64,000 nucleotides of DNA from Tessaracoccus oleiagri (GTDB taxonomy: Bacteria > Actinomycetota > Actinomycetes > Propionibacteriales > Propionibacteriaceae): contig NZ_FNGP01000003.1 in assembly GCF_900103275.1 (NCBI RefSeq), positions 62,001 to 126,000 of the forward strand, written 5' to 3'. Positions 30,381 through 49,895 of this stretch are shown piece after piece; the stretch's first letter is position 1; the number at the start of each line of letters is the position of its first letter. The notes beneath the pieces were generated by a model. The model saw nothing but the letters and a program-made list of their open reading frames with translations, had not been told where the DNA came from and ran no database searches. The translations under genes and the position numbers were made by a program.

Positions 30381-31835
30381 TCAGTGGGTCGGCACGATCA
30401 CCGACTCGATGCCGAGGACGTCGGCGACCTTGGCCAGCGTCTGCGCGTGGTGGCCGATGCCGAGGGCGTAGTGGTGGGTGGGGGCCTCGCGGGTCCAGCG
30501 CTTGAGGAAGGTGCGGACGTCGGGCTCGAAGCGTCCGAGGGTGTTGGTGTTTCCGGTGGGGGGCACGGGCATGGGCAGGGACTCGCCCTCGGCGATGACG
30601 AACTTGAAGCGGCCGTCGGCGGTGATGGTGTTGCCGAGCATGGTGATGGGGCCCTCCTTGATGTTGAACTCCACGGAGGCGCCTGAGCCGGGTTTGCCGT
30701 GGTACTTCTTCAGGGAGCGGATGGCGGGGCGGCCCTGGGCGATGTTGATGTGGTGGGGGCCGTCGTGGCCGACGAGGACGGCGTCGCGGTCGAAGTCGAT
30801 GGGGTGGAACTCGGCGAAGCTGCCGCCGATGTCGAGGCGGTCCATGACCATCATCGCGACGCAGGTCTTGACGTCGAACTCGCCGCACATGGGGAAGCCC
30901 TCGGCCTGGAGGAGGGAGTTGCCGACGACGAGGTTGGTCATCAGGGTGCGCATCTCGGAGCCGGGGTGGCCCTCGTAGTAGTAGGCGAGCCCGTCGAGGT
31001 GCTTCTCGTCGATGAAGCCGTCGAGCGCGACGGCGGCGCGGGCCGCGGTGTCGAGGTCCGCGTCGGTGAGCTTCATGGTGATGGGGTCGGAGACCGGGTC
31101 GGGGGTGTCGAAGAAGGCCAGGATCTGGTCCTTCTTCGCGGCGACGGCGGCGGGGTCGGGGTCCGCCCAGTGGCGCTGGATGTCCTCGGGTTCGCACAGG
31201 ACGACGTGGGCGCCGAAGGCGGCGGTGAGGGCGGTCGGGTCGGTGTGCATGTCGAGCATGGATTCGAGCACGTGGCCCATGAGGCCGATGCGGGCGGTGC
31301 GGAGGCTGCGGCGGACCTTGGCGATCTGGCACCACTGGGCGAGTTCGGCGTCGGCGATGGGGTCGTTGTCGAGGGTGCCGATGATGACGTCGGGGACGGG
31401 TTTGCCCATCCGGACGGCCACGGCGGCGAACTCGGGGACCGAGCAGAAGTCGTCGTTGGCGAGCTGCATGTGGGTGGTGGCGTTGGCGTAGTCGAGCGAG
31501 GAGCGGGGCTGCAGCGCGACGAGCACGATCGGGATGTCGAGGGCGCGGACGAGGACCCCGAAGGTGGAGGAGGTGGCGTAGGTGACCATGTCGACGAGCA
31601 GCAGGTCGAGGTCGGCGGCGCGCACCCGCGGCAGCACGGCGTAGGCGGACTCGGCCTCGTCGACGAGCCCGAAGTCGACGACCTCGACGCCGTTGCCCTC
31701 CACCTTCCGCCCGAGCACCGCGGCCTTGGCGAGCAGTTCGTCGCGGAGGCCGTCGAACTGGTCCCAATAGACGTGGTGACCCACCGAGACGATCCCGACC
31801 TTCGCGCTGAGCGGTTTCCGGCGCTCGATCCTCAT
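30381..31835 (-). CDS. AraA/FucI-fold sugar isomerase
   Basis: 484 residues with the two-part layout of L-arabinose/L-fucose isomerases, which interconvert aldoses and ketoses using Mn2+. Candidate metal ligands are Glu319 (CGEFDVK), Glu342 (FAEFHP) and His357 (GHDGPHH), plus a His in the C-terminal HHYALGIGHH, with an order and spacing like AraA. It diverges enough from classical AraA (no LGAHM motif) that the sugar is unclear. AGGAGGAG lies 8 nt before ATG. It overlaps the 814-residue gene upstream by ATGA, as third gene of a GH2 operon. Sequences around 30550-31700 are unusually G/T-biased on the plus strand. Confidence 0.75.
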   Translation of the reverse strand: MRIERRKPLSAKVGIVSVGHHVYWDQFDGLRDELLAKAAVLGRKVEGNGVEVVDFGLVDEAESAYAVLPRVRAADLDLLLVDMVTYATSSTFGVLVRALDIPIVLVALQPRSSLDYANATTHMQLANDDFCSVPEFAAVAVRMGKPVPDVIIGTLDNDPIADAELAQWCQIAKVRRSLRTARIGLMGHVLESMLDMHTDPTALTAAFGAHVVLCEPEDIQRHWADPDPAAVAAKKDQILAFFDTPDPVSDPITMKLTDADLDTAARAAVALDGFIDEKHLDGLAYYYEGHPGSEMRTLMTNLVVGNSLLQAEGFPMCGEFDVKTCVAMMVMDRLDIGGSFAEFHPIDFDRDAVLVGHDGPHHINIAQGRPAIRSLKKYHGKPGSGASVEFNIKEGPITMLGNTITADGRFKFVIAEGESLPMPVPPTGNTNTLGRFEPDVRTFLKRWTREAPTHHYALGIGHHAQTLAKVADVLGIESVIVPTH

Positions 31836-34276
31836 GTTGTTTCTCCTCCTGTGTCCTTGGTTTCCTGCCACATCGTGGTCAGGGTGCCGGTGACGGGCCC
31901 CACCGTGAGGCGGCCGCCCGGCTGGTCGTCGAGCGTCAGCGGCTCGCCGTCGACGAGCACCCGCAGCTCCGCCACGTGGGGCGGCAGCAGCAGGGTGACG
32001 CTCGCGTCGACGAGCCCGGTGACGCGGAACCCGCGCGTCATGTGCGCGGGGAAGGGTGCCATCTCGCGGCAGCTGAGCCGCCCGGCGGACGACTGTCGGA
32101 CCAGGGCGCGGCACTCGGCGCGGACGGACTTCGCGAACTGGTAGGTGGCGACCCCGTCCTCGAGCCAGCACTCCTGGTGGTGCAGCACCGGCGCGCCGCC
32201 GGGCAGCGCGAGCCGCACGCGGGTGGTCGTGTCGGGCAGGTAGCCGCTGAACCAGAGGGCGCCGGCGGAACGGTGCGCGGCCAGGACCGCGCGCCCGGAC
32301 GACGGGCGGCGCAGCTCGTGCGAGACGCGGAACCCGGTCGTGGCGACCAGGTCCCGCGCCAGGGCGCCCGCGTCGACGAACTCCTCCCGGTCGTGCGGGA
32401 CGTGCGCGCGGACGCCGCGATCGTCGGGCTCCGCGTAGGCGAACGGCGACGACCCCCTGACCCACAGCACCCGGCCGCGGCCGACGGCCCTGGACGACGC
32501 GTACACCCGCTCCCGGTCCTCGGCCGCGACGGTGGCGAGCACCTCGACCCCGGGGTCGCGGGCGACCTCGCGGGCCGGCCCGTCGGAGAGCAGCGGGTCG
32601 TGGCGCAGCGTGGTGGGGAGAACGTCGGTCGTGGTCGCGTCCCCGGCCAGCGCGGTCGCGAGGCGCAGGTCCCCGTCGATTCCCTCGCGAGCGAGGTCCA
32701 GGCCGACCATCGCGCGCGCCGCCTCCGAGCGGGCCAGGGAGCCGTACAGCAGCACCGTGCCGCCGCGCGAGGCGTGCGACTCCAGCAGTCCGGCCATGGC
32801 CGATGTCAGCGCCCCGGCCGGCGCCACGAGGATGCTCTCCGCCATGGAGCCCGAGCCGAGGGCCCCGGCGAGGTCGTCGGTGGGGACGACGGTGTTGAGC
32901 GGCAGCCCCGCGTTGATGGCCGAGGTGAGGTACCAGTCCTCGAAGTGCGGCGAGCCGATCGTCGAAGGGTCGGCCGCCATCCGCTCGTGGTACTCCCGGA
33001 AGGGGTAGACCCACACCAGCGGGCCGGGGGCGTCCGGCGCCGCCTCGAGCGCCGTGGCGACGTGGTCGCCCACCTCGCGGGCGCAGCGCTCGTCGAGCAC
33101 GCCCTTGGCGGTGTCGATGGCGAGGACGTTGACCTCGGTCGGCGGCTGCACCGACCCGTCGGCGCGGACCCTCGAGACGGCCAGCGGCAGGTCGATGTCG
33201 AACGGCTCGCGGTGGTAGAAGTCCCACCACGGCTGCTGCCAGAACCACGGATCGTTCGCGTAGAAGCGGAACCGGTAGCCCTCCGCGCCCGCCGGCAGCA
33301 TCGCGATGCGCGACATGAAGCCCGCCATCTCGATGCCGAAGTCCTCGTTGAGCGGTCCCCACGGCGAGTTCGGGGGCGGGGACTCGATGACGCCCGCCTC
33401 GTAGATCTCGAGCGCGGGCACCGCGTCGGCGCCGATGTCGATGCCGGCGGTGTGGTTGGTGCCGCGCACCTGCACGGGGTAGGAGAGGTGGCGGCCGAGG
33501 TCGCGCCAGAACCCGAGCGCTCTCGTGCGAAGCTCCTCGACCCGGTCGGCGCGGAAGCGGGTGCCGTCGAAGGACTCGCCGAGCTCGGACCACGCGTACG
33601 AGCTGAACCCGAACCCGTTGGACAGCCACAGGTAGTCGAAGTCCAGCACCGCCAAGTAGTCCTGGGCCTGCCTGCCGAGGAACTCGCCGAAGCTCGTCCC
33701 GTCCGGGATGCCTCCGGGGAAGGCGGCGTAGCGACGGTCGTCGCCGCGGAGCTCGGAGAAGTGCCGGACCATGGCGATGATCGGGCCGATGCCGATGTCC
33801 TCGCCGCGGGCCACGACCTCCGGATGCCGGTCGAACTTGAACGACGAGGGAGCGAACTCCGGCCCGGGGTCGAAGGTCGCGCCGACGCTCGTCGGCAGTC
33901 CGCGCTCGGCGCCCACCCGCTTGATCGTCGCGACGAGGGCGGCCAGGTCCCGGTACGTGACGGTCGGCATCCCGTCGCGGAACGGGATCGCTACCCGCTC
34001 GGGCTCCTTGGGCTCCCCGTACGGGCTCGCCTCCGTGTTGTTGAACCCGATCCAGCGGGCCCACTCGATCTCCTCGTCGATCTCGGAGCGCCAGTCGAGG
34101 ATCTCGCTGCCGTCGGAGACCCAGAGCAACACCGAGCACTCGTCGGCGGCGGCGAGGAGGGTGGACCACTGGTCGAAGATCGTCCCCACCGTCGCCAGGA
34201 GCGAGTCCCGGTCGTATGCGGTGAACGGTTTCAGGGAGACTTCGAGGTTGGCGCGGCGGAGTGGTGCGTCGGTCAT
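31832..34276 (-). CDS. Uncharacterised 814-residue protein, candidate glycoside hydrolase
   Basis: I do not recognise a named family. The N-terminal ~420 residues alternate strands and helices like a TIM barrel (VSLKPFTAYD, PTSVGATFDPGPEFAPSSF, DYLWLSNGFGFSSYAWSEL). A middle part resembles the flavodoxin-like trimerisation domain of GH42 enzymes (ESILVAPAGALTSAMAGLL, GGTVLLYGSLA). The C-terminal ~200 residues look like beta-sandwich (HHQECWLEDGVATYQF). No signal peptide, so cytoplasmic. It lies between, and is coupled by ATGA overlaps to, a GH2 beta-mannosidase gene and a sugar isomerase gene. A glycan-cleaving role is inferred from context and fold impression only. Confidence 0.6.
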   Translation of the reverse strand: MTDAPLRRANLEVSLKPFTAYDRDSLLATVGTIFDQWSTLLAAADECSVLLWVSDGSEILDWRSEIDEEIEWARWIGFNNTEASPYGEPKEPERVAIPFRDGMPTVTYRDLAALVATIKRVGAERGLPTSVGATFDPGPEFAPSSFKFDRHPEVVARGEDIGIGPIIAMVRHFSELRGDDRRYAAFPGGIPDGTSFGEFLGRQAQDYLAVLDFDYLWLSNGFGFSSYAWSELGESFDGTRFRADRVEELRTRALGFWRDLGRHLSYPVQVRGTNHTAGIDIGADAVPALEIYEAGVIESPPPNSPWGPLNEDFGIEMAGFMSRIAMLPAGAEGYRFRFYANDPWFWQQPWWDFYHREPFDIDLPLAVSRVRADGSVQPPTEVNVLAIDTAKGVLDERCAREVGDHVATALEAAPDAPGPLVWVYPFREYHERMAADPSTIGSPHFEDWYLTSAINAGLPLNTVVPTDDLAGALGSGSMAESILVAPAGALTSAMAGLLESHASRGGTVLLYGSLARSEAARAMVGLDLAREGIDGDLRLATALAGDATTTDVLPTTLRHDPLLSDGPAREVARDPGVEVLATVAAEDRERVYASSRAVGRGRVLWVRGSSPFAYAEPDDRGVRAHVPHDREEFVDAGALARDLVATTGFRVSHELRRPSSGRAVLAAHRSAGALWFSGYLPDTTTRVRLALPGGAPVLHHQECWLEDGVATYQFAKSVRAECRALVRQSSAGRLSCREMAPFPAHMTRGFRVTGLVDASVTLLLPPHVAELRVLVDGEPLTLDDQPGGRLTVGPVTGTLTTMWQETKDTGGETT

Positions 34277-36837
34277 GACTCAAGTCTCACGGCTACGACG
34301 TCCTCCCGGGGCAGCGCGTCGATGCCGGGGGCGGAGTCCTCCCCGGACCGACGTGCGGCCGCCACCAGGTCGTTGGCGCTGCGCAGCACCGGGCGACGCC
34401 CGAAGGCGCCGGGCTCCACCGCCGCAGCGGTGGTGACGTGGAACTCCGCCGTCTCGCCGGGGAGCAGTGTCACCAGGGCGCGGTCCACCCGCGCCCGCGG
34501 GTCGATGTGGTCGACGAGGAGCGTGAGGTCCTTCACGAGCGCGCGGGCGGTCGCCACCACTCGCACGCCACCGTCGGCCGCCTCGACGCGCACGTCGAGC
34601 GCCTCGTCGGAGAGGGCAAGCGAGGTGTCCTCGGCGAAGTACCAGAGCGCGCGCTCCCCGGTCGACAGGTCCGCGACGACGAACTCCGCCGTCGCGTCCT
34701 TCACCGCCAGCACGTCGCGCGGCAGTGGGACGGTCACGGCGGAGCGCGCCGGCACCGACACCGACCGGCGGTCCTCCGCCAGGACGAGGCCGCCGAGGCC
34801 GCACCGGCGCGCCCAGAGGGTCGCCTCCCACGCGTCCGGGGAGTCGTTGTGCAGCACCAGCGCGGGCCCGTCGGGTCGCGGCTGGATCGTGGCGAGCCGG
34901 TCGGCGAACACGTCGCGGAGCGCGTACCACAAGGGCTTGCGGACGCGGTGCGCGTCGACGGCGGACCAGGACACCACCGGCCAGCAGTCGTTCAGCTGCC
35001 AGACCACGGCGCCCGTGTTGAACGGGGCCAGGGATCGGAAGTGCTCGATCCCGAGCCGTACGGCGCGGGCCTGGTTGAGTTGCGTGGCCCAGTGCCAGTC
35101 GACGTAGTCGGCGGGCTCGGGGAGGTGGTCGCCCAGCCCGCGCTGCAGCTTGCCCTGCCCGTCGTCGGCCTTCTGGTGGACGAGCAGGTCCGGGCCGAAG
35201 GGGGAGCGGGGCTCGTCGTGCACGACCGACTCGAGCGTCGCGAAGGCGGGCGGGCCCTGGAAGCCGAACTCCGCCACGAAGCGGGGCCGGTAGCTGCGGT
35301 AGTGGAGGTAGTCGTGCGTGTTCCAGACGTCCCAGATGTGCATGCAGCCGCTGGTGTCGTCGTTGGGGTGCAGGTAGCGGTCGAAGGAGAAGGGGCTGCC
35401 CTCGAGGTAGGGCACCCCGGGGGCCAGCTCGGACACGACGCGCGGGAACAGCTCGGTGTAGTAGCCCTCGCCCCAGGTGGCGCCGTCGAGCATGGCGCGC
35501 CAGCCCCAGTCGGCCCAACCCCAGATGTTCTCGTTGCCCCCGTTGAACAGCGCCAGCGACGCGTGGCCGGCGAGGCGGCCGACGGCCTCCCTCGCCTCGG
35601 CGTCGAACTCGTCCCACAGCTCGGTGTCCTCGGAGTAGGCGGCGCAGGCGAGCGGGAAGTCCTGCCAGACCAGCAGGCCGAGCTCGTCGCAGAGGTCGTA
35701 GAAGTCCTCGGACTCGTAGATGCCGCCGCCCCAGACGCGAAGCAGGTTCATCCCGGCGTCGACGGCGTCCGTGACCGACGCCCGCAGGCTGGCCCGGGTG
35801 ATCCGCGGCAGGTAGGTGTCGTCGGGGATCCAGTTGGCCCCGCGCACGTAGACGTCGGCCCCGTTCACACGCACCACGAAGCGGTTCCCCTCGGGGTCGG
35901 GGGAGGTGTCGACCTCCACCGAGCGGAAGCCGAGGCGGCCGCGCCACTCGTCGACGGTCTCGCCGGCGGGCGACAGGAGGGTCACGGTCGCCGGGTACAG
36001 CGGCTGGTCGCCGTGGGTGCGCGGCCACCAGGGCTCGGCCCCGGGCACCGCGAGCTCCAGACGGTTGTCCCCGGACGCGTCGACGGTGTGGTCGAGATGG
36101 TCCCCGACGCGGACTCGCAGCGTGTGGCCCGGGGCGTGGTGCTCGACCGCCATGCGGAGATCCAGTGTGGCACCGGCCTCGGCCGACCACGCCGTCAGGG
36201 GGCGGACCTCGGCCAGGCGCGGGCCGGAGCGCTCCTCGAGGGCGATGGGCCGCCAGATGCCGGCGGTGACGATCTCCGGCCCCCAGTCCCAACCGAAGGC
36301 GTAGGCGGGCTTACGGATGGCGTTGAAGGGGTGCGGGTTGGAGTGGGGGCGCTCGCCCAGCACCGCCTCGCGCTCGGCGGCGTACCGCTGGGCGGCGGTG
36401 AAGAGCACCCGCAGGTCGTTGCGGCCCTCGCGCAGGTGGCGGTGCACGTCGAAGCGGTAGGAACGGTGGTGGTTGGCGGTGCGGCCGATCTCGGCCTCGC
36501 CCAGCCAGAGGGTGGCGACGGTGTCGAGGCCCTCGGCGACGAGCTCGTGCCGGTCGTGCCCGTCGGGGGTCCAGTCGAAGGACCTGCGGTACTCCCAGTC
36601 GACGTGGCCGATCCAGGCCAGCGCCGCCTCGTTGCGGCCGTCGTAGGGGTCGGGGATCAGGTCGGCTGCGAGGAGGTCGAGATGCACGACGCCGGGCACG
36701 TTGCCGGGGATGCCGTCGGTGAGTGTCTGGGCCAGGGCCTCCGGGACCGGGCCTCGTACGGCGCGGAGCGTCCAGGCGCCACCTAGGTCGAGACGGTCGG
36801 AAGGGGTGACAGAGACACCGCTGGGTGAGGGAATCAC
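34273..36837 (-). CDS. GH2 beta-mannosidase
   Basis: 854 residues with the five-domain GH2 layout: jelly-roll start, Ig-like domain, TIM barrel and two C-terminal beta domains. The acid/base Glu436 is in NGGNENIWGW and the nucleophile Glu523 in VAEFGFQGPP, the patterns of GH2 mannosidases; the segment AYAFGWDWGPEIVTAGIWRP is also typical of beta-mannosidases. No signal peptide, so it should hydrolyse imported oligosaccharides. GTG 36837 has GGAG 8 nt upstream. First gene of a three-gene operon divergent from lacI; a LacI-type operator lies in the gap. Confidence 0.9.
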   Translation of the reverse strand: MIPSPSGVSVTPSDRLDLGGAWTLRAVRGPVPEALAQTLTDGIPGNVPGVVHLDLLAADLIPDPYDGRNEAALAWIGHVDWEYRRSFDWTPDGHDRHELVAEGLDTVATLWLGEAEIGRTANHHRSYRFDVHRHLREGRNDLRVLFTAAQRYAAEREAVLGERPHSNPHPFNAIRKPAYAFGWDWGPEIVTAGIWRPIALEERSGPRLAEVRPLTAWSAEAGATLDLRMAVEHHAPGHTLRVRVGDHLDHTVDASGDNRLELAVPGAEPWWPRTHGDQPLYPATVTLLSPAGETVDEWRGRLGFRSVEVDTSPDPEGNRFVVRVNGADVYVRGANWIPDDTYLPRITRASLRASVTDAVDAGMNLLRVWGGGIYESEDFYDLCDELGLLVWQDFPLACAAYSEDTELWDEFDAEAREAVGRLAGHASLALFNGGNENIWGWADWGWRAMLDGATWGEGYYTELFPRVVSELAPGVPYLEGSPFSFDRYLHPNDDTSGCMHIWDVWNTHDYLHYRSYRPRFVAEFGFQGPPAFATLESVVHDEPRSPFGPDLLVHQKADDGQGKLQRGLGDHLPEPADYVDWHWATQLNQARAVRLGIEHFRSLAPFNTGAVVWQLNDCWPVVSWSAVDAHRVRKPLWYALRDVFADRLATIQPRPDGPALVLHNDSPDAWEATLWARRCGLGGLVLAEDRRSVSVPARSAVTVPLPRDVLAVKDATAEFVVADLSTGERALWYFAEDTSLALSDEALDVRVEAADGGVRVVATARALVKDLTLLVDHIDPRARVDRALVTLLPGETAEFHVTTAAAVEPGAFGRRPVLRSANDLVAAARRSGEDSAPGIDALPREDVVAVRLES

Positions 36838-36977: not shown

Positions 36978-36992
36978 TAGTCTCTCAACATG
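36978..36992 (+). promoter_or_regulatory. -10 box of a leaderless lacI transcript
   Basis: TAGTCT (36978-36983) precedes the ATG at 36990 by 6 nt, with no Shine-Dalgarno sequence between them. Confidence 0.5.
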
Positions 36993-38069
36993 CCGACACC
37001 CACGGGCGATGGAAAGCCTCGCCGCCTCACGATCGCGCAGATCGCTGAACGAGCGAACGTGTCTCCTTCTGCGGTCTCGTTCGCGCTCAACGGCCGCCCG
37101 GGAGTTTCCCCCAAGACCCGCGAGCGGATCCTGGAAGTGGTCCGCCAGGCCAACTGGCGGCCCAACTACGCGGCCCAGGCGCTGTCGAAGTCCCGGGCGG
37201 GAGTGATTGGTGTGGTCACGATCCGTGAACCGGGCCAGCCGCTCTGGTCCGCCAGCTTCGGTGGTCATTTCCTCGCGGGCGTGCAGTCCGCCCTCGCGGA
37301 GCATGGCGTCCTCCTCATCCTGCACACGGTCCAGAGCCTCGACGAAGAGGCGCAGCTCTACGAATGCTGGTTGGGTCAACGCCGGGTCGACGGAGTGCTC
37401 GTCATCAACCCGCGGGTCACGGACCCCCGACTGGAAGAGTTGGACAGGATCGACCTCCCCGCCGTCGTCGTGGGCGACACCCGCGAACAGTCGGATCTGA
37501 GCTGCGTCTGGACGGATGACGAGGACGCGGCCCACATCGCAGTGGAGCACCTCGCGAGGCTCGGTCACCGGCACGTCGCCAGGATCGGCGGTGACCCGGA
37601 GCTGCTCCACTTCGCGATCCGCGAGCGCGCCTTCAAGGCTGCAGCCCAGGACGCTCGCGTCAAGATGAACGCCGAGACACTGGACGCCGATGCGACGGCT
37701 GCCGAACGGGTCCGAGAACTGGCCGCTGCGCCCGTCAACCCTCTTACGGGCGTGATAGTCGAGGACATCGAGTTCGCGGTCCACCTGACGGGCGCGCTCC
37801 GCCAGCTGGGCATCTCGGTGCCCGGGGACATTTCGGTCCTCGCCTGGGACGACAGCCCCGCGGCCACCTTGCTGACCCCTGCGCTCACGGTGCTCCACCG
37901 AGACATCACCGAGTATGGCAGGCTCGCCGCAGACCAGCTGATCGAGGCCATCGAAAGCGGCGAGCGAAGGTCGATCCGGGGAACCAGCACCCGGCTCGTA
38001 CGGCGTGACAGCACGGGTCCGGTCGGGCATCCAGTCAGCGGGGCGGGATCACCACCTCCCCCGGAATGA
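36990..38069 (+). CDS. LacI-family transcriptional regulator
   Basis: 359 residues. The N-terminal helix-turn-helix with hinge (about residues 14-62; LTIAQIAERANVSPSAVSFAL) is followed by a periplasmic-binding-like sugar-sensing domain beginning GVIGVV. Probable repressor of the glycan genes: operators of this class lie beside it and at 42953 and 49931. The last ~12 codons (SGAGSPPPPE tail) overlap the 3' end of the convergent FAD oxidoreductase gene by 35 bp. The effector is probably a sugar released from the target glycan (inference). Confidence 0.9.
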   Translation: MPTPTGDGKPRRLTIAQIAERANVSPSAVSFALNGRPGVSPKTRERILEVVRQANWRPNYAAQALSKSRAGVIGVVTIREPGQPLWSASFGGHFLAGVQSALAEHGVLLILHTVQSLDEEAQLYECWLGQRRVDGVLVINPRVTDPRLEELDRIDLPAVVVGDTREQSDLSCVWTDDEDAAHIAVEHLARLGHRHVARIGGDPELLHFAIRERAFKAAAQDARVKMNAETLDADATAAERVRELAAAPVNPLTGVIVEDIEFAVHLTGALRQLGISVPGDISVLAWDDSPAATLLTPALTVLHRDITEYGRLAADQLIEAIESGERRSIRGTSTRLVRRDSTGPVGHPVSGAGSPPPPE

Positions 38070-39333: not shown

Positions 39334-40166
39334 CACGAATCGCCTCGCACCGGAGTTGCCGAGTGGCCGAGGACCGTGGACAGTTTGGATGCTGCTGCTG
39401 TGGCCGCGTCCACGAGCAGTGTCTCGTGGGCCGGGGTTCTTCGTACAGCAGGGTAGCCGACGCAGATCGCCGCAACCACCCTGCCAGCACCGTCCCGAAC
39501 GGGAGCAGCGACACCGCAAACGCCCGCCGCTTCTTCTTCGAAGTTGGTCGCGTAGCCGGACCGGCGCACGCCGTCGAGTTCGGCGGCAAGTCGCTGCATC
39601 TCGCCCGCTGGCAGGTTGAGAAGGGCTTGTAGCTCGCCTGTGGTGGCGCCGGACAGGAGGGCCTTGCCGGCGGCAGTGCGACGCAAGGCTCCAGTGGGGT
39701 CGGAAGGGCTCCTCATGTTGCTGGGGTTGACGTTCAACAATTGGCGGCTGACGAGCACCGAGAGGTCCACTCTTCTGCCCTCGCGAAGAGTCGACAAGTG
39801 CACCGTCTCGTCGGTCCGCTCCCAAAGGTCGCGCAACACCGGTGCAGCCACGATGCCCAAGTCGTACTGCAGCTCGTAGGTGCGGTTCAGTTCGAAGAAC
39901 CGGGGCCCCAGGACGTACCGGCGGGTTTCATCGATCTGGCCCACGAGCCCATGGATTGCCAAGGCGCTGAGCAGGGTCCTGCCGGTCGAGGCGTGCAGAC
40001 CCACCCGGTCGGCCAGAATCTTGAGCGGCACTCCAGCGGGCCCGGCGGCGGCGATCTCGGTCAGCAGTGAGACAGTCCGATCGATCGCCTGGATGGGGCT
40101 GCGCGGTTGCTGAGCGGGGGCAGGCTGGTCCCCGAGGGATGGCCGAGGCTCCTGACTGGGCGGCAT
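39330..40166 (-). CDS. IclR-family transcriptional regulator
   Basis: 278 residues. The N-terminal winged helix (about residues 25-90; AIDRTVSLLTEIAA, LKILADRVGLHASTGRTLLSAL) is followed by the GAF-like effector domain with GVCGVAAPVRDGAGRVVAAICV. Starts at ATG 40166 with GAAGAGG upstream. It is transcribed divergently from the rhamnosidase and translationally coupled to the FAD oxidoreductase. Its probable operator is the inverted repeat at 40225-40241. Confidence 0.88.
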   Translation of the reverse strand: MPPSQEPRPSLGDQPAPAQQPRSPIQAIDRTVSLLTEIAAAGPAGVPLKILADRVGLHASTGRTLLSALAIHGLVGQIDETRRYVLGPRFFELNRTYELQYDLGIVAAPVLRDLWERTDETVHLSTLREGRRVDLSVLVSRQLLNVNPSNMRSPSDPTGALRRTAAGKALLSGATTGELQALLNLPAGEMQRLAAELDGVRRSGYATNFEEEAAGVCGVAAPVRDGAGRVVAAICVGYPAVRRTPAHETLLVDAATAAASKLSTVLGHSATPVRGDSW

Positions 40167-40224
40167 GGGATCGCCTCTTCTTGTTGTTGCGCCGCTCCGG
40201 TGGCTGCGCGGTGTGGTTAGATCT

Positions 40225-40261
40225 GTTCTACATTGCAGAACCTGCTTCGTCAATATAGTAG
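40225..40261. promoter_or_regulatory. Face-to-face iclR/rhamnosidase promoters with IclR-type operator
   Basis: The inverted repeat GTTCT-N7-AGAAC spans 40225-40241. On the minus strand TTGACG (40253-40248), 17 nt and TAGAAC (40230-40225) make an iclR promoter. On the plus strand TTGCAG (40233-40238), 17 nt and TAGTAG (40256-40261) make a rhamnosidase promoter. The repeat covers the minus -10 and the plus -35, so a bound regulator would switch both. Confidence 0.6.
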
Positions 40262-40293
40262 GCGAGTGCGTTTTTGCCGCAGGAGGCAACCGA

Positions 40294-42951
40294 ATGAGGG
40301 CCGAGGAGTCGCTGAGCATGCAGGTGGTCGAGGGGGCTGGGGCTGCGCCCGCGGTCGCCGTGAGCAGGTTGAGGGTGGAGTCGACCGCGGAGCCGGTGGG
40401 AGTCGACGTCGCCGCGCCCCGCTTGTCCTGGATCGTCGAGGCCGGGGCAAACGGAGTACGCCAGACGCACTACGCCGTTCGCGTCGAGGAGGTCGGCGAT
40501 GCCGAGGGCGCCTCGCCGGCCGTGTGGGAGCTCGGACCGGTGGCGTCGTCCGCCACCCGGAGCGTCGATTACGCCGGTTCGCCACTGAAGGCGAACACCA
40601 GGTACCGGTGGCGGGTGTCCGTGTCCACGTCGGCAGGGGAAGCCTCTGCCTGGTCCACGTTTCGGACCGGCTTGTTCATCGACGCGGACTGGGCGGGGGC
40701 CAAGTGGATCGCTCGGCGTGGGGGCACTGTCGGGCGGATCTCCCAGCCCGCACCAGTCATGCGCCGGAGCTTCGTCCTCAATCGTCCCGTGGTCAGTGCC
40801 CAGCTGTACGTGGCCGCCGGAGGGTATGCCGACGTCCGCATCAACGGGGACGCCCCGGATCGGGGGGTGCTAGCACCGGGCTTCACCGATTACGACGTCT
40901 GCGTGCAGTACGACGCCACCGAAGTGGCCGAGCTTCTGCACTGCGGCATCAACACACTCCGGGTGGAGCTGGGACGGGGCTTCTATGCAATGCTCCAACG
41001 GAACATCTGGGGGTGGGAAAGGGCCCCGTGGCACGCTGAACCGTGCGTGAGGATCGCCCTGCTGGTCGAGCATGACGACGGCAGCCGCACTTCGGTGGTG
41101 ACGGACGAGGAGTGGCGCGCCGAGGACGGGCCAATCATCTTCGACGACCTCTACGCAGGTGAGTCGTTCGACTTCTCCAGGCGACTGGTTGGCATCGACG
41201 ATGCACGCTTCGATGATGGGCCATGGCAACCGGTGGTCACCGTGGCCGGCCCCCGCGGGGCCCTCAGGCACCAGCGCCAGCCTCCGATCAGGGCGACGGA
41301 CACCATCCATGCGGTGTCGGTGGTGCGCCTGGCCCCCGGCCGATTCGTCGTCGAGTTTCCGCGGGTGATGGCTGGCTGGGTGACGTTGACCATCCCTGCC
41401 CGGGCGCGATCCAAGGTGAGAGTCGTGTATGCCGAGACGCTGCGAGCCGACGGCAGCGCCAACAACGACGACCCTGCGGACTACTACGAGGGGCGGTTCC
41501 AGACCGGTGAGGTGACCTTCACGGCCGAAGGGCAGTCCTGGAGTCCAAAGTTCAGCTACTACGGGTTCCGTTACGTCGAATTGACCGGCTGGCCGGACGA
41601 GCAGCCGCCGACCGGGGACAGCGTAGTGGCCCATTGCATTCACACCGACCTCCGGCGCACCGGTGCGTTCAGCTGCTCTGAGCCCCTGCTCAACGAGATC
41701 CACGGCATCGTCGTCGACACGGTCCTCAACAATGCGCATGGGATTCCTACGGACACACCCACGTTCGAGAAGAACGGATGGACCGGGGACGGCATGGTGG
41801 CCGCGGAACTGATGCTGATGAACTTCGACGCGCACGAGTTCCTGGCGAAGTGGACCGAGGACATCGTCGCGACCGCCCGTCACACGGGGATTCCCCGTGT
41901 GATCGCCCCCCATGGCGGTTGGCCGCACGACTGGGGTCCAACGCCGACGTGGAACGCCGCCATGGCACTGGTTCCGCAATGGCTCCACCTCTACACCGGG
42001 GACGAGAGGAGCTTGGCGACCCATTACGACGTCCTGGCGGAACATGCGCGGCTCGAGTTCCGGCGGGCATCGTCGGGCATAGCGACCACCACGCTCGGTG
42101 ACTGGGTGGCCCCCGAGACCCCTCCGGGTGGCGGCAATCCCGAGGAGGACCTGCGCGTCACGGCAACGATCTTCCTGCACGCGATCCTGAGCGCCGTGGC
42201 TGACGCGGGGCACTTGGTGGGCCGCCGGGGGGAGTCCCAAGAATTTCGCGTGCTCGCGGGACAGGTGAAACAGGCGTTCCTGAACGCCTTCTACGATGCC
42301 TCCGCCGGCGTGGTCAAGGGAGCGGGAGAGAGGGAGTTCCGGCAGACGCACAACGTCCTCGCTCTGGCGTTCGGGCTGATCCCCGACTCCGGGCGACAGG
42401 CGGTCGCGGACGCCGTGGCCAACGACGTGGTGCAGCGCGATTTCCATCTCAATACTGGGGCCTTGGGGACCAAGTACCTGTTGCCGGTGCTGAGCCGTCA
42501 CGGGCACTCGGATGTGGCGGTACGCGTGGCACTGCAGACCTCCTTTCCCAGTTGGGGATACTGGCTCGCAAACGGTGCGACGACGACGTGGGAACATTGG
42601 TCGATCGAGTCCCGCTCACGCGGACACTATTTCCTCGGCACTGTGGATGACTGGCTCTTCCACGACGTCGCCGGCATCCGTCCGCTGGTCCCGGGGTACC
42701 GCGTGTTCCTGGTGTCCCCGATGCTGGCTGCCCCGCTCACGTCAGCCACGGCCAGCATCGAGACGGCCATGTTGGTCGTGAGCGTCGGTTGGCTGCAAAC
42801 CATTGACGGCCATGAAGTGCACGTCGGAGTACCGGTGGGAGCAACGGCGGTCGTCAGGCTCCCCGCCGGTCACGTCACCATCCTTGAATCCGGGGGGCAC
42901 AGGTTGCGCTCGTACAGCGAACCGCGTGAAAAAAGTCCGCCGCAGACTTGA
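40294..42951 (+). CDS. Alpha-L-rhamnosidase (GH78)
   Basis: 885 residues with the bacterial alpha-L-rhamnosidase order: N-terminal fibronectin-like domain (SRLRVEST...PRLSW), two beta domains with GYADVRINGDAP, then an (alpha/alpha)6 catalytic barrel. The motif DTPTFEKNGWTGDGM near residue 490 is the family hallmark with its acidic catalytic residues, and a C-terminal beta domain follows. No signal peptide, so it acts on imported rhamnosides. AGGAGG lies 7 nt before ATG 40294. Codon use is a little less GC-biased than in the housekeeping genes, in line with an accessory locus. Confidence 0.9.
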   Translation: MRAEESLSMQVVEGAGAAPAVAVSRLRVESTAEPVGVDVAAPRLSWIVEAGANGVRQTHYAVRVEEVGDAEGASPAVWELGPVASSATRSVDYAGSPLKANTRYRWRVSVSTSAGEASAWSTFRTGLFIDADWAGAKWIARRGGTVGRISQPAPVMRRSFVLNRPVVSAQLYVAAGGYADVRINGDAPDRGVLAPGFTDYDVCVQYDATEVAELLHCGINTLRVELGRGFYAMLQRNIWGWERAPWHAEPCVRIALLVEHDDGSRTSVVTDEEWRAEDGPIIFDDLYAGESFDFSRRLVGIDDARFDDGPWQPVVTVAGPRGALRHQRQPPIRATDTIHAVSVVRLAPGRFVVEFPRVMAGWVTLTIPARARSKVRVVYAETLRADGSANNDDPADYYEGRFQTGEVTFTAEGQSWSPKFSYYGFRYVELTGWPDEQPPTGDSVVAHCIHTDLRRTGAFSCSEPLLNEIHGIVVDTVLNNAHGIPTDTPTFEKNGWTGDGMVAAELMLMNFDAHEFLAKWTEDIVATARHTGIPRVIAPHGGWPHDWGPTPTWNAAMALVPQWLHLYTGDERSLATHYDVLAEHARLEFRRASSGIATTTLGDWVAPETPPGGGNPEEDLRVTATIFLHAILSAVADAGHLVGRRGESQEFRVLAGQVKQAFLNAFYDASAGVVKGAGEREFRQTHNVLALAFGLIPDSGRQAVADAVANDVVQRDFHLNTGALGTKYLLPVLSRHGHSDVAVRVALQTSFPSWGYWLANGATTTWEHWSIESRSRGHYFLGTVDDWLFHDVAGIRPLVPGYRVFLVSPMLAAPLTSATASIETAMLVVSVGWLQTIDGHEVHVGVPVGATAVVRLPAGHVTILESGGHRLRSYSEPREKSPPQT

Positions 42952-43043: not shown

Positions 43044-44351
43044 ATGCTTGCATCGTCCCGCCGTCGCGTTGCCGTCCTCACGGTCGCAGCGCTTTCCACC
43101 GGTTTCCTGGCCGCCTGCTCCGACAGCAACGCCCAAGAGACCAACGAACCCGCCCCTGCTCCCGCCAGCTCCGCAGAGCTCGGAGGAACGCTCACGATCG
43201 CCACCAGCAGCGATATCGGCCCGAAGCTGTTCATCGACGACTTCACCGCGGAAACCGGCGTCGACGTCAAGGGCACCTATGCCGAGGCCGGTGCACTGGG
43301 TGAGCAGATCCGAATCCAGGTCACGTCGGGGACTGCCCCTGACCTGTTCCGTTCCGCGCCCGGCTACGCGGCGCCGTCGTCGGTGCTGAACCTTGCGGAG
43401 GAGGGGGCACTGATGGACCTTTCCGACCAGCCATGGGCCGAATTCGTCCCCGAGTCCTTCGCCCCGCTGCAGCAGCTCGATGACAAGACCTACGCCTTCC
43501 CGACCTACGGTCAGGCCATGCTCGCCTTCTACAACAAGGCGGTGTTCGAGGAAGTCGGGGTCGAACCTCCGACCACCTGGCCTGAGTTCATCGAGGTCAT
43601 GGACCAGTTGAAGGCGGCCGGCAAGACCCCGATCGCCCTCGGTCTCGCCGACGCCTACATCATGCAGTTCTTGCCGTTCGCACTGTCCTCGACGCTGGTC
43701 AATGGGCAGACGCCGGACTTCTACGACCGCCTCAACGCCGGCGAGACCTCATTCGTCGAGTCTGAAGGATGGCGGAAGACCCTCGAACTGTTCCTCGGAC
43801 TCATCGAGGACGGCTACACGACGCCGAACCCGCTCGGCATGCCGGGGGATCCCGCCATGCAATCGGTGGGCAGCGGCGAGGCGGCCATCGTCGTCATGCC
43901 GTCCGCCGCATCCCCCGTGCTCGCCGGCTTCATGGAAGGCGGGGCCGACCAGATGGGGTCCTTCGCGATCCCGGCCACGGACGATGCGAGCGAGACCTTC
44001 GTCGCATTCACTCCTGATTACCTGGTCGTGAACGCCGACGCGGAGAACGCCGACGCCGCGCTGGCGTTCCTCGACTACATCTCCGCCCCGGAGCGCACGG
44101 CCGAGTGGGCTGCCGAGATGGGTGCCATCCCTGCGCTGACCAACGCCGAGCCGATCGACAACCCGCTCAACCAGACGGTACAGCCGTTCCTCGACGAGGG
44201 GCGCACGGCACCCTTCGCCAACCACGCCTGGCCCGGCGGCCAGGTCGCCGCGGCCCTCATGGAGGTTGGTCAGCAGGCAGTCGAGGGCTCCAAGACGATC
44301 GACGACGTGCTCGCCGCCATGGACGCTGCCTACCAGGAGGCCATGAAGTGA
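43044..44351 (+). CDS. Sugar ABC transporter substrate-binding lipoprotein
   Basis: 435 residues of the extracellular family 1 (CUT1) type. The signal peptide ends in a lipobox LAAC (Cys25) followed by an Ala/Pro linker. The mature part has GGTLTIATSSD, AFYNKAVFEEVGVEPPTTWPEF and the hinge regions common to oligosaccharide receptors. It should capture a glycan fragment for the two permeases coupled to it. GAGG precedes ATG 43044. The ATPase is not in the operon; a shared MsmK-type ATPase encoded elsewhere is likely (inference). Confidence 0.9.
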   Translation: MLASSRRRVAVLTVAALSTGFLAACSDSNAQETNEPAPAPASSAELGGTLTIATSSDIGPKLFIDDFTAETGVDVKGTYAEAGALGEQIRIQVTSGTAPDLFRSAPGYAAPSSVLNLAEEGALMDLSDQPWAEFVPESFAPLQQLDDKTYAFPTYGQAMLAFYNKAVFEEVGVEPPTTWPEFIEVMDQLKAAGKTPIALGLADAYIMQFLPFALSSTLVNGQTPDFYDRLNAGETSFVESEGWRKTLELFLGLIEDGYTTPNPLGMPGDPAMQSVGSGEAAIVVMPSAASPVLAGFMEGGADQMGSFAIPATDDASETFVAFTPDYLVVNADAENADAALAFLDYISAPERTAEWAAEMGAIPALTNAEPIDNPLNQTVQPFLDEGRTAPFANHAWPGGQVAAALMEVGQQAVEGSKTIDDVLAAMDAAYQEAMK

Positions 44352-45298
44352 GCACAGCTCTCGCCGAGAGGGTGTCTGCGGCCTCCGGGCCGCAGGCCCC
44401 CTCGCGGGCGGGGCGCCCCGGGGGAGCGGCGCGCCGCCGGCGGCTGGCGCCCCAGTGGTTCCTGGCGCCCGCCCTCCTCTTCTACGCAATCGTCGTCCTC
44501 TACCCCTCCGTCGCCGGTGGCTACTATGCCTTCACCGACTGGGCGGGTGGGGCCGAGGCCAACTTCATCGGACTCGACAACTTCCGCGAGATGCTCGACG
44601 ACCAGGCGGCCGTCGCCTCGCTCCGCAACACCCTCCTGATCGCGGTCTCGCTCACCGTCGTGCAGTCGGGACTCGGGCTCCTGCTGGCCCTCGCGCTCAA
44701 CTCCGCGATCCGCGCCCGCAACCTGCTGCGCACCCTCTTCTTCGCCCCCATGATGATGCCGCCCGTCATCGTTGGTCTCCTGTGGCAGTACATCTACACG
44801 CCCGGCGGCCCGCTCGACACCGCACTCGGGGCGCTCGGCCTCGGCGGCCTCATCCAGAGCTGGCTCGGCAGCTCCGACATCGCCCTCTGGTCGATCATCG
44901 CGAGCGTCATCTGGCACCACGTCGGCATGTCGATGGTCATCTTCCTCGCCGGCCTCCAGGGCATCCCCTGGGAGCTGTACGAGGCGGCCGCCCTCGACGG
45001 GGCCGGCAAGCTGCGCCAGTTCCTCTCCGTCACCTGGCCGCTCCTCGGGCAGGCCATCACGATCGCCACCGCGCTGACGATGACCTCCTCCCTCAAGCTC
45101 TTCGACCAGGTCTTCGTCATGACCGGCGGCGGCCCGGGCGTCTCCACCCAGACGCTGTCGCTGATCATGTACCGCGAGGCGTTCGTCTACGGCGAGTACG
45201 GCTACGGCTCCGCCATCGCGCTCGTGCTGACGATGATCGTCGCCTTCATCGTCTTCCTCCAGATGTCCATCACCCGACGAGGGGAGGTCGACGCATGA
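44348..45298 (+). CDS. Sugar ABC transporter permease (MalF/UgpA type)
   Basis: 316 residues with a basic N-terminus, six helices and the EAA loop YEAAALDGAGKLRQF near residue 213. GTG start overlapping the binding-protein stop by GTGA; ATGA overlap with the second permease. It forms a heterodimeric pore with that partner. Confidence 0.9.
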   Translation: MSTALAERVSAASGPQAPSRAGRPGGAARRRRLAPQWFLAPALLFYAIVVLYPSVAGGYYAFTDWAGGAEANFIGLDNFREMLDDQAAVASLRNTLLIAVSLTVVQSGLGLLLALALNSAIRARNLLRTLFFAPMMMPPVIVGLLWQYIYTPGGPLDTALGALGLGGLIQSWLGSSDIALWSIIASVIWHHVGMSMVIFLAGLQGIPWELYEAAALDGAGKLRQFLSVTWPLLGQAITIATALTMTSSLKLFDQVFVMTGGGPGVSTQTLSLIMYREAFVYGEYGYGSAIALVLTMIVAFIVFLQMSITRRGEVDA

Positions 45299-46185: not shown

Positions 46186-47354
46186 TCCCCCGACCACTCC
46201 CCGTCACCTCGCACGTGCACCTGCCCGTGCGGGTGGCCCCGCCACACAACTCGAGCGACGCGGGTGCAATCACCACCCGTCTGCACCACGTCCTCGAACG
46301 CGACGCGTCCGGCATCCGGCTCGTCTACGCCAACTGGTCCAACGACCAGGGCGCGGACCTCCCGGGGCCGGACGCGATCCGCGTCTCCGCCACCGTCGCG
46401 CTCGACGGTGGGGCGCCGCTGCCCGTCACCTTCGACGGCGAACCCGCCGCCACGCTCGCGCCCGGCGAGGCGCGGATCAGCGACCCGCTGCCCATCGGGG
46501 CCCCGAAGGGCGCGACGATCACCAGCACGACCACCGCACGCGGCGGCACCGTCCCCCTCGGCCCCTGCACCGACGCCACTGAGGGCGAGGGCGTGGCAGT
46601 GGGGGAGCGGGAGCCGGAGCCCGGCACCGCCTACGGGTACGGCCCCTGGCAGGTCCTCGGCGACGTAGCCGACGTCGCGCCCCTGCTGCTCGTCACCGGC
46701 GACTCGAACGCGGTGGGCTTCGGTGACCGCCGCGGCACCGCCGACCACCTCGGCTGGGTCCGGCGGGCGTTCGCCGGCACCGTGCCGCTCATCAACCTCG
46801 CGGTGAGCGGCGGCACCGCGCTGGGCGCGCAGACCGACGCATCGAAGCTCCGGCGCGGCCGGTTGCTGCAGTGGGCGGAGCCCGACGTCGCCCTCGCCGC
46901 CCTCGGTACCAACGACCTCCAGCGCGGCGGTCCGACGCTCGCGGAGATGCAGCGGAGGCTGACGGCGCACTGGCTCGACCTCGCGGGAGCCGGGCGGCCC
47001 GTCCACGCGTGCACGATCCCGCCCGTGACGACGTCGACGGACGGGTGGCTGACGATCCCCGGACAGGTTCCCACCCCCGGGAGCGACGTGCGCGCGGCGG
47101 TGAACGCCTGGCTCCGCACGGTCCCGGCGCCGCTGGCCGGGGTCGTGGACGTGGCCCGCGCCCTCTGCGCCCCGGAGTCGGAGCACGTCTGGGGCGCGGG
47201 CCTCACGGATGACGGCGTGCATCCCAACGCGGTGGGCCATGCGGCGGCCGCAGGGGCCGCCGCATGGCTCGTCGCGTCACTGTGCGATGCGGAAGATGGC
47301 GCTGCGCCACTTCTCCAACGGCACCCGGATGCCTCCCTGGGCCAGCTGCGCTGA
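46182..47354 (+). CDS. SGNH/GDSL-type esterase with N-terminal beta domain
   Basis: About 390 residues. The N-terminal ~150 residues look like a beta-sandwich. The SGNH hydrolase part follows with block I TGDSN (Ser near 174), block II SGGT, block III GTND and block V DDGVHPN with the catalytic His near 348. Coupled to the sugar permeases, so a carbohydrate de-acetylating role (for example acetyl-mannan) is the likely one (inference). No signal peptide is seen. The domain ends near WLVAS, but the frame runs 24 codons further and overlaps the convergent GH5 gene by 78 bp. Confidence 0.78.
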   Translation: MIPRPLPVTSHVHLPVRVAPPHNSSDAGAITTRLHHVLERDASGIRLVYANWSNDQGADLPGPDAIRVSATVALDGGAPLPVTFDGEPAATLAPGEARISDPLPIGAPKGATITSTTTARGGTVPLGPCTDATEGEGVAVGEREPEPGTAYGYGPWQVLGDVADVAPLLLVTGDSNAVGFGDRRGTADHLGWVRRAFAGTVPLINLAVSGGTALGAQTDASKLRRGRLLQWAEPDVALAALGTNDLQRGGPTLAEMQRRLTAHWLDLAGAGRPVHACTIPPVTTSTDGWLTIPGQVPTPGSDVRAAVNAWLRTVPAPLAGVVDVARALCAPESEHVWGAGLTDDGVHPNAVGHAAAAGAAAWLVASLCDAEDGAAPLLQRHPDASLGQLR

Positions 47355-49895
47355 GGTGCCGCTGAAGACGGAGCTGCCGTCCTCGGCGAGCAGCCGGAAG
47401 CTGCCCTCGCGCTCGATACGGGGGTACACCTTGTCCCGTGCCGGGTTCTTGGCCGACCTGCGGTAGACGACTAGGTGCTCCGGGCCGACGATCAGCTGGT
47501 GGTCGACGCCGGTGCGCTCGTCCACAGGCACACCCGCGCCGGCCAGGAAGGACGCCAGCGCCTCCCGCTCGAGGGCGGCCATGTCGTCCACCCACAGGAT
47601 CGGGACGGGGAACCCGTCGGCCTCGAGGACGCTGCGCACCCTCGCATCGAGGTTGCGTCGGTCCACCACCACGGCCTTGTAGTCGAAGTCCGCGCTGAGC
47701 CCGTCCACCTGCTCCAGGCCCGTCGGGACCATGGTCAGGAGCCGGTCGATGATCTCGTCGTCGGTCAGGAGGTGGAACGCCGGCAGGTGCAGGTCGAGCG
47801 CCAGCCGGACGAAGGGGACGACGGCGAAGTTGTGCCCGTTCGCGATGGGGACCGCGGCGGGGTTCTGGATCACCGCCACCTGCGCGCCCGACCAGTCCAC
47901 CGGGCCGGCGGCGTAGACGGGGGAGAAGCGGCGGTAGTGCCGCTCGAAGGCCTCCCGGAAGGGGACGAAATCCACCGCGTTGTGCCACAGCGCCCAGTGC
48001 AGCTGGCCGACGGCGCCGGCCGCGTAGTACTGGGCGAGGCCGGCCTCGATCATCAGTTCGCCCGCCTCGGACTGGGGCAGGTCGGGCAGGAACGACTCCC
48101 ACCCGTAGCTGCCGCCCTCACCGTTGTAGACGGGTCCCGAGGTGGAGTACGGGGCGAACAGCGAGGCGATTGCGTGCGAGAACACGTCGTCGACGTCGCG
48201 GGCCAGCCACGGCGACCGGCGCTGCTCGGCGTCGGGCCGCAGGTCGATGGGGGCGTTCGGCATGTAGTGGTGGGGCGCGTTGCCGTCGACGATGTTCGGC
48301 AGCTGCCAGGTGGAGACCGAGGTCGACACGTCGTGGCCGTACGCGCCGACCATCGCGAACACCAGCCGCTGGGGATCCGCGCCCTTGACCGCCATCGCGC
48401 ACTGCTCGGTGACGCGTCGCCAGTTCGACTGGATGGACATGTAGGCGTCGTGCGGCTCGTTGTGGGGGATCTCGATGCCCATGATGGCGTGGTTGCCCTT
48501 GAAGTGGGTGGCCAGCCAGCGATGGGAGTCGAGCAGGGTGCCCAGGTGCTCCGGGTCGGCCACGTTGAAGGTGCCGCGCTCCGTGGGCGACGGGGCGAGG
48601 TACGCGAACGCGGTGCCCGGCTTCCCGGTCCCGGCGTCGTGGTTGTTCCCGCCGCTCCAGTAGTCGTAGGGGTCCACCGGGTAGCGGTGCCAGTCGAGCA
48701 CGAGCCGGATGCCGTGGCGGCCGGCCCGCTCGGCGAAGTGGTCGAGCATGGCCAGCCACTGCGGATTCATGCCCCGCGACGTGATCTCGCCGAGCCAGGC
48801 GTCGTCGTCCGGGAAGACGCCGCGGGCGGGCTGCACCATGCCGAGGTTGATCGGCACGCGGATGACCCGCAGGCCCCAGTGCGCCATCAGCGCGATGTCG
48901 GCGTCGAGGCCGGTCCAGTCGGCGGTCCGCGGGAACTTCAGCATCACGAGGTCGTAGTTGAAGCCGGTGAAGCCGAACGGGCGGTCGCCGTCGAGCAGCT
49001 TGCCGCCGACGACGGTGAGCGGGCCCAGCTCCTGTGGGTCCCTGATCTCGACGGGGAAGGTGTGGCTGACGCCGAGGTGGTCGATGGTGATCTCGGTCGT
49101 GCCCGCGGCCACGGGCGTGAGGTAGCCGTACTCGTCGACGGTCAGCACACCGGGGTCGGCGGGGGTGAGGGACGAGTGCTGGGTCACGTCGCGCGTGGTG
49201 CCGTCGGCGTACTTGGCGCGCACCACGAGCGGGACCAGGTCGTCGTCGTCGGTGAGCGCGAGCGGCAGGCCGGTGGTCTCGAGCGAGCTGGGCACCACCT
49301 CCTCCACGAGGTGCTCGACGCGCACGTCGTCGAACCAGGCGACGGCCTTGGTGGAGCCGAGCGTCAGGTGGTCCTTCCAGACCTGCAGCTCGAGGCGGAT
49401 CACGTCGTCCATGCCGGCGATGTTGTTCCACTGGGTCATCTCGACGTGCTGCCAGGCCGGCTGACCGGCGGGCACGTTCACCTGGACGTTGCGCACGCCC
49501 TGCGTGGCGCTGACCAACCTGACTTGGATCCGGGAGACGCCCTGGGTGCGGACCTTGAGGGTGACCTTGCGGACGTCGAGCCGGTCAAGGGTCTTGCGTA
49601 GGGCGACGTATCGCCCCGCGGAGGTGAAGTCGCCCGTGAGGCGGCCCGAGCGTCGGCCGACCGCGGCGAGCGAGTCGTCGCGGACGAACTCGCCCACGGC
49701 CGCCCCGTACTCGTTGCCGAGGTGCAGCGCCCAGGGCTCGTGGCGGGACTCGAAGTGGCCGATGACGTCGGTCCAGGTGACCGGCGCCGCGGCTGCGGTG
49801 ATGGGGCTGAGGTGGTTGGCCAGCACGCTGGTGGCCACGACCGCCCCGGTGCCGATCAGCATCGTGCGTCTGGTGAAGGTGTACTTGGGATCCAT
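47277..49895 (-). CDS. Tat-exported GH5-like glycoside hydrolase, multidomain
   Basis: 872 residues. The twin-arginine signal TRRTMLIGTGAV is followed by a hydrophobic stretch and a cleavage region near AAAA-P. A CBM-like beta-sandwich (about 40-195) and a Big_2-type Ig domain (about 215-290; DEYGYLTPVAAGTTEITI) precede a clan-A barrel (about 300-630). HNEP carries the acid/base Glu480 and YNGEGGSYG the nucleophile Glu593, the GH5 pattern. A C-terminal beta domain follows. Likely a secreted mannanase- or cellulase-like enzyme; the substrate is inferred from the neighbouring beta-mannosidase. Its promoter carries a LacI-type operator. Confidence 0.82.
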   Translation of the reverse strand: MDPKYTFTRRTMLIGTGAVVATSVLANHLSPITAAAAPVTWTDVIGHFESRHEPWALHLGNEYGAAVGEFVRDDSLAAVGRRSGRLTGDFTSAGRYVALRKTLDRLDVRKVTLKVRTQGVSRIQVRLVSATQGVRNVQVNVPAGQPAWQHVEMTQWNNIAGMDDVIRLELQVWKDHLTLGSTKAVAWFDDVRVEHLVEEVVPSSLETTGLPLALTDDDDLVPLVVRAKYADGTTRDVTQHSSLTPADPGVLTVDEYGYLTPVAAGTTEITIDHLGVSHTFPVEIRDPQELGPLTVVGGKLLDGDRPFGFTGFNYDLVMLKFPRTADWTGLDADIALMAHWGLRVIRVPINLGMVQPARGVFPDDDAWLGEITSRGMNPQWLAMLDHFAERAGRHGIRLVLDWHRYPVDPYDYWSGGNNHDAGTGKPGTAFAYLAPSPTERGTFNVADPEHLGTLLDSHRWLATHFKGNHAIMGIEIPHNEPHDAYMSIQSNWRRVTEQCAMAVKGADPQRLVFAMVGAYGHDVSTSVSTWQLPNIVDGNAPHHYMPNAPIDLRPDAEQRRSPWLARDVDDVFSHAIASLFAPYSTSGPVYNGEGGSYGWESFLPDLPQSEAGELMIEAGLAQYYAAGAVGQLHWALWHNAVDFVPFREAFERHYRRFSPVYAAGPVDWSGAQVAVIQNPAAVPIANGHNFAVVPFVRLALDLHLPAFHLLTDDEIIDRLLTMVPTGLEQVDGLSADFDYKAVVVDRRNLDARVRSVLEADGFPVPILWVDDMAALEREALASFLAGAGVPVDERTGVDHQLIVGPEHLVVYRRSAKNPARDKVYPRIEREGSFRLLAEDGSSVFSGTSAQLAQGGIRVPLEKWRSAIFRIAQ

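Follow-up and report, generated by a model that had tools for sequence, protein, structure and literature searches.

The q814 gene and its neighbours

The minus strand of a 64,000-nucleotide stretch of Tessaracoccus oleiagri DNA (contig NZ_FNGP01000003.1, positions 62,001 to 126,000; hereafter the window, numbered from its first letter) carries a gene for an 814-residue protein, q814, that a preliminary description of this DNA had proposed as a candidate new glycoside-hydrolase family. The gene lies between those of a family GH2 beta-mannosidase and a sugar isomerase:

31832..34276, minus strand: q814, the subject of this study (open reading frame (ORF), translation, orthologues, dN/dS)
34273..36837, minus strand: GH2 beta-mannosidase gene, upstream, with an ATGA overlap (Pfam, PDB matches, motifs)
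30381..31835, minus strand: divergent AraA/FucI-fold sugar isomerase gene, with an ATGA overlap (Pfam, NCBIfam, PDB, motifs)

Reading and translating the sequence recovers the 814-residue ORF, from its ATG, at the place given in the preliminary description, with the strand now fixed as minus, and the ATGA coupling claimed for both of its sides is present. The GH2 stop overlaps the q814 start at 34276-34273 (gtcATGAccg), an overlap seen again in loci L002, L003, L006 and L007, and the q814 stop overlaps the isomerase start at 31835-31832 (caacATGAgg), with GGAGGAG upstream of the latter. That q814 is a real gene follows from the full-length alignment of ten sequences across 806 profile positions and from substitutions that fall mostly at third codon positions, the ratio of nonsynonymous to synonymous substitution rates (dN/dS) being ~0.3-0.4; the gene is under purifying selection. 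On the evidence of these orthologues and of the third-position divergence in the minus frame, the plus-strand reading of 31832-34276 and an overlapping plus-strand ORF at 31976-35107 were dropped as high-GC shadow frames.

Family and structure matches, together with conserved motifs, also uphold the two neighbours as previously named. The GH2 protein matches PDB beta-mannosidases at 5e-125 and keeps the catalytic motifs NGGNE and AEFG, while the isomerase matches Arabinose_Iso_C, Fucose_iso_C and L-arabinose isomerase structures, with its four metal-ligand motifs intact. Its score of 53 bits is far under the L-arabinose isomerase equivalog cut-off of 622 bits, and its substrate is possibly a new one.

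Relatives of q814 and family searches

A scan of genome contigs returned seven full-length homologues of q814 from Tessaracoccus, Arachnia, Actinotalea, Phytoactinopolyspora and Agromyces. Whole-genome searches then contributed two divergent sequences (52% and 41% identical) and found some of those seven again. The orthologues from these genera are 41-71% identical over the full length, and such proteins are rare: of 395 genomes sampled from the class, 4 contain one. Relatives that are more distant or comprise only the barrel occur at loci L024 and L049 (28% identity), the latter in a Nonomuraea record, and plasmid records yielded only one relative, which is barrel-only. The L049 record (NZ_LT559118.1, 11.85 Mb) is labelled a plasmid and, to judge from its size, is probably the chromosome. 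Fragment matches in genomes G194 (L014) and G357 (L013) are confined to 60-72 residues of the middle domain; they were left out of the analysis.

No known family was recovered for q814 in Pfam at E up to 1, Cellulase PF00150 included, or in NCBIfam or PHROGs, and for its orthologues Pfam at E up to 5 yielded a single weak match, to DUF6307. PDB sequences gave no match to the single sequence or to the profile, the latter searched at E up to 10 against all PDB chains up to 2026. A genome search with PF02449, the GH42 catalytic-domain model, did not recover q814 in G000; the L024 relative had no Pfam match and one of the L025 paralogues described below had no NCBIfam match. Viral contigs held no relative, a viral structure library gave a single very weak match (E 8e-4), and literature searched with related terms contained nothing fitting q814. 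The earlier failure to place the protein thus stands, and q814 plausibly represents a new glycoside-hydrolase family, a status set against Pfam, NCBIfam, PHROGs and PDB. It is improbable that the family already has a CAZy number or a published description and simply has no model in the searched libraries: these exclude CAZy/dbCAN, and there are earlier descriptions of GH42-like enzymes whose sequences show insignificant similarity to GH42 (PMC8233224, PMC7105311), but neither the family and structure libraries nor the literature offered a fitting match.

Predicted fold

An AlphaFold2 (AF2) model of q814, built with the ten orthologues, has a predicted local distance difference test score (pLDDT) of 82 and a predicted template modelling score (pTM) of 0.87. 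It agrees with the three parts suggested in the preliminary description, a barrel, a GH42-like flavodoxin-type domain and a beta-sandwich, and the domain roles and strand numbers used below are those predicted from it:

33152..34261, minus strand: predicted eight-stranded (beta/alpha)8 barrel, residues 6-375 (AF2 model, conservation by domain)
32312..33151, minus strand: flavodoxin-like alpha/beta domain, residues 376-655, related to the GH42 trimerization domain (AF2, hhalign)
31862..32311, minus strand: beta-sandwich, residues 656-805 (AF2 secondary structure)

When the model was compared with PDB structures in Foldseek, GH42 beta-galactosidases came first (5e9a, 9e-17), ahead of the GH164 beta-mannosidase 6t6g (5e-15), with the GH5 enzyme Op5Man5 (7bob, 7e-10) and a GH112 enzyme (2zuw, 3e-8) among the further matches. 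The top matches are glycosidases or a phosphorylase with a GH42-type architecture, so that the fold search proposed earlier leads to GH42, GH164 and similar enzymes as the closest solved structures. Whole-chain template modelling scores (TM-scores) of these matches are ~0.4, and therefore the domain arrangement or the loops of q814 appear to differ from the matched structures. At the sequence level, residues 447-653 of the middle domain align to GH42 proteins (hhalign, P 7.8e-4). As modelled, the glycosidase-type architecture of q814 holds.

Conserved residues of the barrel

In the ten-sequence alignment, 33% of the columns of the barrel are invariant, compared with 14% in the other two domains. 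The proportion reaches 40% in the loops of the catalytic face, an enrichment that is borderline in a circular-shift test within the barrel (p ~0.05). Strand 2 has the invariant acids D55 and E58 within six residues of its end, strand 3 has D136 and E140, and strand 7 has D342; by the same measure strand 4 is followed by no invariant acid. Invariant Trp, Asn and Arg residues accompany the acids on the catalytic face. The places of main interest are:

33614..33619, minus strand: N220-G221, standing after strand 4 where clan GH-A enzymes have their Asn-Glu acid/base motif (alignment; AF2 strand 4 at 215-218)
33251..33253, minus strand: D342, invariant acid after strand 7, candidate nucleophile or base (alignment and AF2 strands)
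33857..33871, minus strand: D136-PGP-E140, invariant acid pair after strand 3, candidate proton donor (alignment and strands)

All ten aligned orthologues have N220-G221 at the strand-4 acid/base place, within a motif, LWLSNGFG (SNGFG), that resembles the GH42 motif WHVSNE(L/Y)G except that Gly stands where GH42 has the catalytic Glu. At the place of the clan GH-A strand-7 Glu nucleophile stands the invariant Asp342, a conservative change. The pair of invariant clan-A acids that the preliminary description had sought is therefore found in part, with D342 on the nucleophile strand and N220-G221 where the strand-4 acid/base should be. Together, alignment and model suggest D342 with either E140 or D136 as a candidate catalytic pair.

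The barrel-only proteins of L024 and L049 share with q814 an acid at position 136 (D or E), E140, E153 and D342; the pair corresponding to D136/E140 is E and E in these relatives, and their strand-4/strand-7 places read Q/D. A distant, 700-residue relative of q814 occurs at L025 (6849-13385) as three paralogues in tandem, 39-52% identical, whose strand-4 and strand-7 acids change from copy to copy (A/E, G/E and E/Q).

This pattern bears on two other ways to read the barrel. Plant myrosinases, which belong to GH1, have Gln for the acid/base Glu and offer a model for a retaining clan GH-A-like hydrolase that works without an acid/base on a substrate with a good leaving group or its own proton. 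The strand-4 Asn kept beside the lost Glu, the strand-7 acid and the Gln at the acid/base place of a relative would all fit such an enzyme. Strand 7 of q814, however, is followed by Asp and not Glu, the acid/base could be replaced by E140 or D136, which are just as invariant, and the genomic setting hints at no glucosinolate-like substrate; we regard this mechanism as unlikely. The second reading, in which the barrel has no catalytic role and q814 binds sugar, has a regulatory function or partners the GH2 enzyme, would account for the loss of the canonical acid/base and for the variation of both canonical positions in relatives, but it sits poorly with the very high conservation of the barrel, with the invariant acids, Trp, Asn and Arg on its catalytic face, and with the occurrence of the q814 gene without an adjacent GH2 gene in L005, L008, L015 and L016. 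We give it little credence.

Locus types and the probable substrate

Every locus with a q814 orthologue is sugar-catabolic, and two types can be told apart. Type-1 loci (the window, L002, L003, L006 and L007) contain an ATP-binding cassette (ABC) transporter, a LacI regulator, the GH2 beta-mannosidase, q814 and the isomerase, which in L003 and L006 lies downstream on the other strand. Among these loci the isomerase is 84-90% identical, a higher conservation than that of q814 or GH2. Type-2 loci (L004, L005, L008, L016 and, partly, L015) have no isomerase and hold varying subsets of genes for a zinc alcohol dehydrogenase, an amidohydrolase-2 lactonase, an enolase-superfamily dehydratase, Gfo/Idh oxidoreductases and an IclR regulator; a GH5 gene is also among their contents. 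The MR-type dehydratase matches L-rhamnonate dehydratases (2oz3, 1e-48), the amidohydrolase-2 lactonase is L-fuconolactonase-like, and the gene sets resemble the non-phosphorylated L-rhamnose route of PMC3870299. At L015 (6264-9898) a divergent q814 orthologue lies beside a GH1 beta-glucosidase and a Gfo/Idh-DUF6807 fusion.

Since q814, with a transporter in most loci, is common to both types, its product is probably a sugar that either route can consume. The dehydrogenase, L-fuconolactonase-like and L-rhamnonate-dehydratase-like genes of the type-2 loci make an L-rhamnose- or L-fucose-like sugar more likely than mannose. The substrates named in the preliminary description fare differently: cleavage of beta-mannosides is likely the task of the GH2 neighbour, while the rhamnosyl alternative agrees with the type-2 gene context. 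In some bacteria q814 is linked with a divergent isomerase, in others with an oxidative L-sugar route, and this makes the locus a practical starting point for identifying the substrate.

Proposed function and comparison with known enzymes

We infer, with a probability of roughly 0.55, that q814 cleaves glycosides in the cytoplasm, exo-acting and probably as a trimer, and that it belongs to a family outside the searched libraries, with a GH42/GH164-type architecture and a non-canonical catalytic pair. The neighbouring ABC transporter would import an oligosaccharide or glycoside, which would bind in the barrel pocket of q814. For release of the terminal sugar, D342 on strand 7 would serve as the nucleophile or base, and an acid of strand 3, either E140 or D136, would donate the proton, a role proposed for it because strand 4 lacks its usual Glu. 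The released sugar, likeliest L-rhamnose- or L-fucose-like, would pass to the coupled isomerase in type-1 loci and to the dehydrogenase, lactonase and dehydratase in type-2 loci.

Several observations weigh against this proposal. The q814 barrel has no sequence similarity to GH42 in hhalign; a barrel-only model, of lower confidence (pLDDT 68) and given little weight here, weakly matches several unrelated barrel enzymes, old yellow enzymes included, with a GH168 fucanase first (1.8e-4); pLDDT is below or near 50 in the active-site loops 74-97, 139-172 and 221-234; and the variation of the strand-4 and strand-7 places in distant relatives suggests that the superfamily has no single fixed pair.

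The GH42 beta-galactosidases and alpha-L-arabinopyranosidases (5e9a, 3tts, 5xb7) are like q814 in combining a barrel, predicted for q814, with a flavodoxin-like trimerization domain and a beta-sandwich. The middle domains are related by profile and the S-N-x-x-G motif after strand 4 is common to both, whereas q814 has Gly for the acid/base Glu and Asp instead of Glu after strand 7. The GH164 beta-mannosidase Bs164 (6t6g, PMC7105311) likewise has three domains, with similar boundaries (22-389, 390-609 and 610-681), and shares with q814 a mannose-related gene context; its Glu160 (strand 4) and Glu297 (strand 7) correspond to N-G and D in q814. Bs164 was among the PDB chains searched with the q814 profile and gave no sequence match. 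The GH5 exo-beta-mannosidase Op5Man5 (7bob, PMC8233224) resembles q814 as a sequence-unrelated barrel that carries a GH42-type trimerization domain, but it still has the strand-4 and strand-7 Glu residues (Glu156 and Glu281). Both Bs164 and Op5Man5 have been described as GH42-like modular trimers, Op5Man5 explicitly despite insignificant sequence similarity (PMC7105311, PMC8233224).

All of these GH42-scaffold hydrolases have the strand-4/strand-7 Glu pair. The family GH112 combines a GH42-like architecture with an altered catalytic pair, as q814 appears to do, and gives rise to a further reading, in which q814 would be an inverting GH112-type glycoside phosphorylase or another transferase whose altered site admits phosphate and yields a sugar 1-phosphate. 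A GH112 enzyme is among the Foldseek matches, the invariant R271, R323, R337 and K16 could bind phosphate, and in GH112 the phosphate site lies near the GH42 nucleophile and the catalytic acid near the GH42 acid/base (PMC8106489). The acids of q814 follow the reverse pattern, since GH112 keeps its proton donor near the strand-4 place, where q814 has N-G, and q814 keeps an acid on strand 7. Moreover, the coupled isomerase and the type-2 dehydrogenase use free sugars and not sugar 1-phosphates, and no sequence similarity to GH112 was found for q814 in Pfam or in any PDB chain. A phosphorylase or transferase is accordingly an improbable assignment.

For the glycoside-cleaving enzyme with a non-canonical pair, the point of interest is the catalytic mechanism, the classical two-acid clan-A site being absent. 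A conserved GH42-scaffold family without the strand-4 Glu would show how an active site can be remade and would probably be given a CAZy family of its own. The fuller claim, that q814 founds an unclassified GH42-scaffold family in which the clan GH-A acid/base was lost, a strand-3/strand-7 pair took its place and a 6-deoxy-L-sugar feeds a new AraA-fold isomerase or an oxidative pathway, is advanced tentatively and taken as a whole is rather doubtful.

Other genes of the window

The remaining features of the sugar-related region are:

36990..38069, plus strand: LacI-type regulator of a divergent cluster (Pfam; conserved in L002, L003, L006 and L007)
40165..42951, plus strand: GH78 alpha-L-rhamnosidase (Pfam, NCBIfam; present in L002 too)
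43044..44351, plus strand: sugar ABC transporter solute-binding protein (Pfam; followed by permeases at ~44333-46185)
47277..49895, minus strand: GH5-like protein with a twin-arginine-type leader (homologues in L004, L005 and L008; NEP and E593 motifs)

Homologues of the solute-binding protein are 63-80% identical in seven of the orthologue loci, L002-L008. The GH5-like protein, probably a secreted member to judge from its sequence, is 63-66% identical in three type-2 loci, and its homologue in L005 matches Cellulase PF00150; its catalytic part has no solved relative, the only match being a Teneurin-like stretch at residues 220-311. An enolase-superfamily match in the window was rejected as a sugar-acid dehydratase, as it looks like menC in a menaquinone cluster.

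After the permeases, the product of 46239-47354 (plus strand), which has no NCBIfam match, has the look of an SGNH hydrolase (GDSNAVGF...GTND...DGVHP) and is kept in the orthologue loci. The segment 38035-42951 encodes an FAD oxidoreductase, an IclR regulator and the GH78 alpha-L-rhamnosidase, a trio that in L002 lies on the opposite side of the q814 operon.

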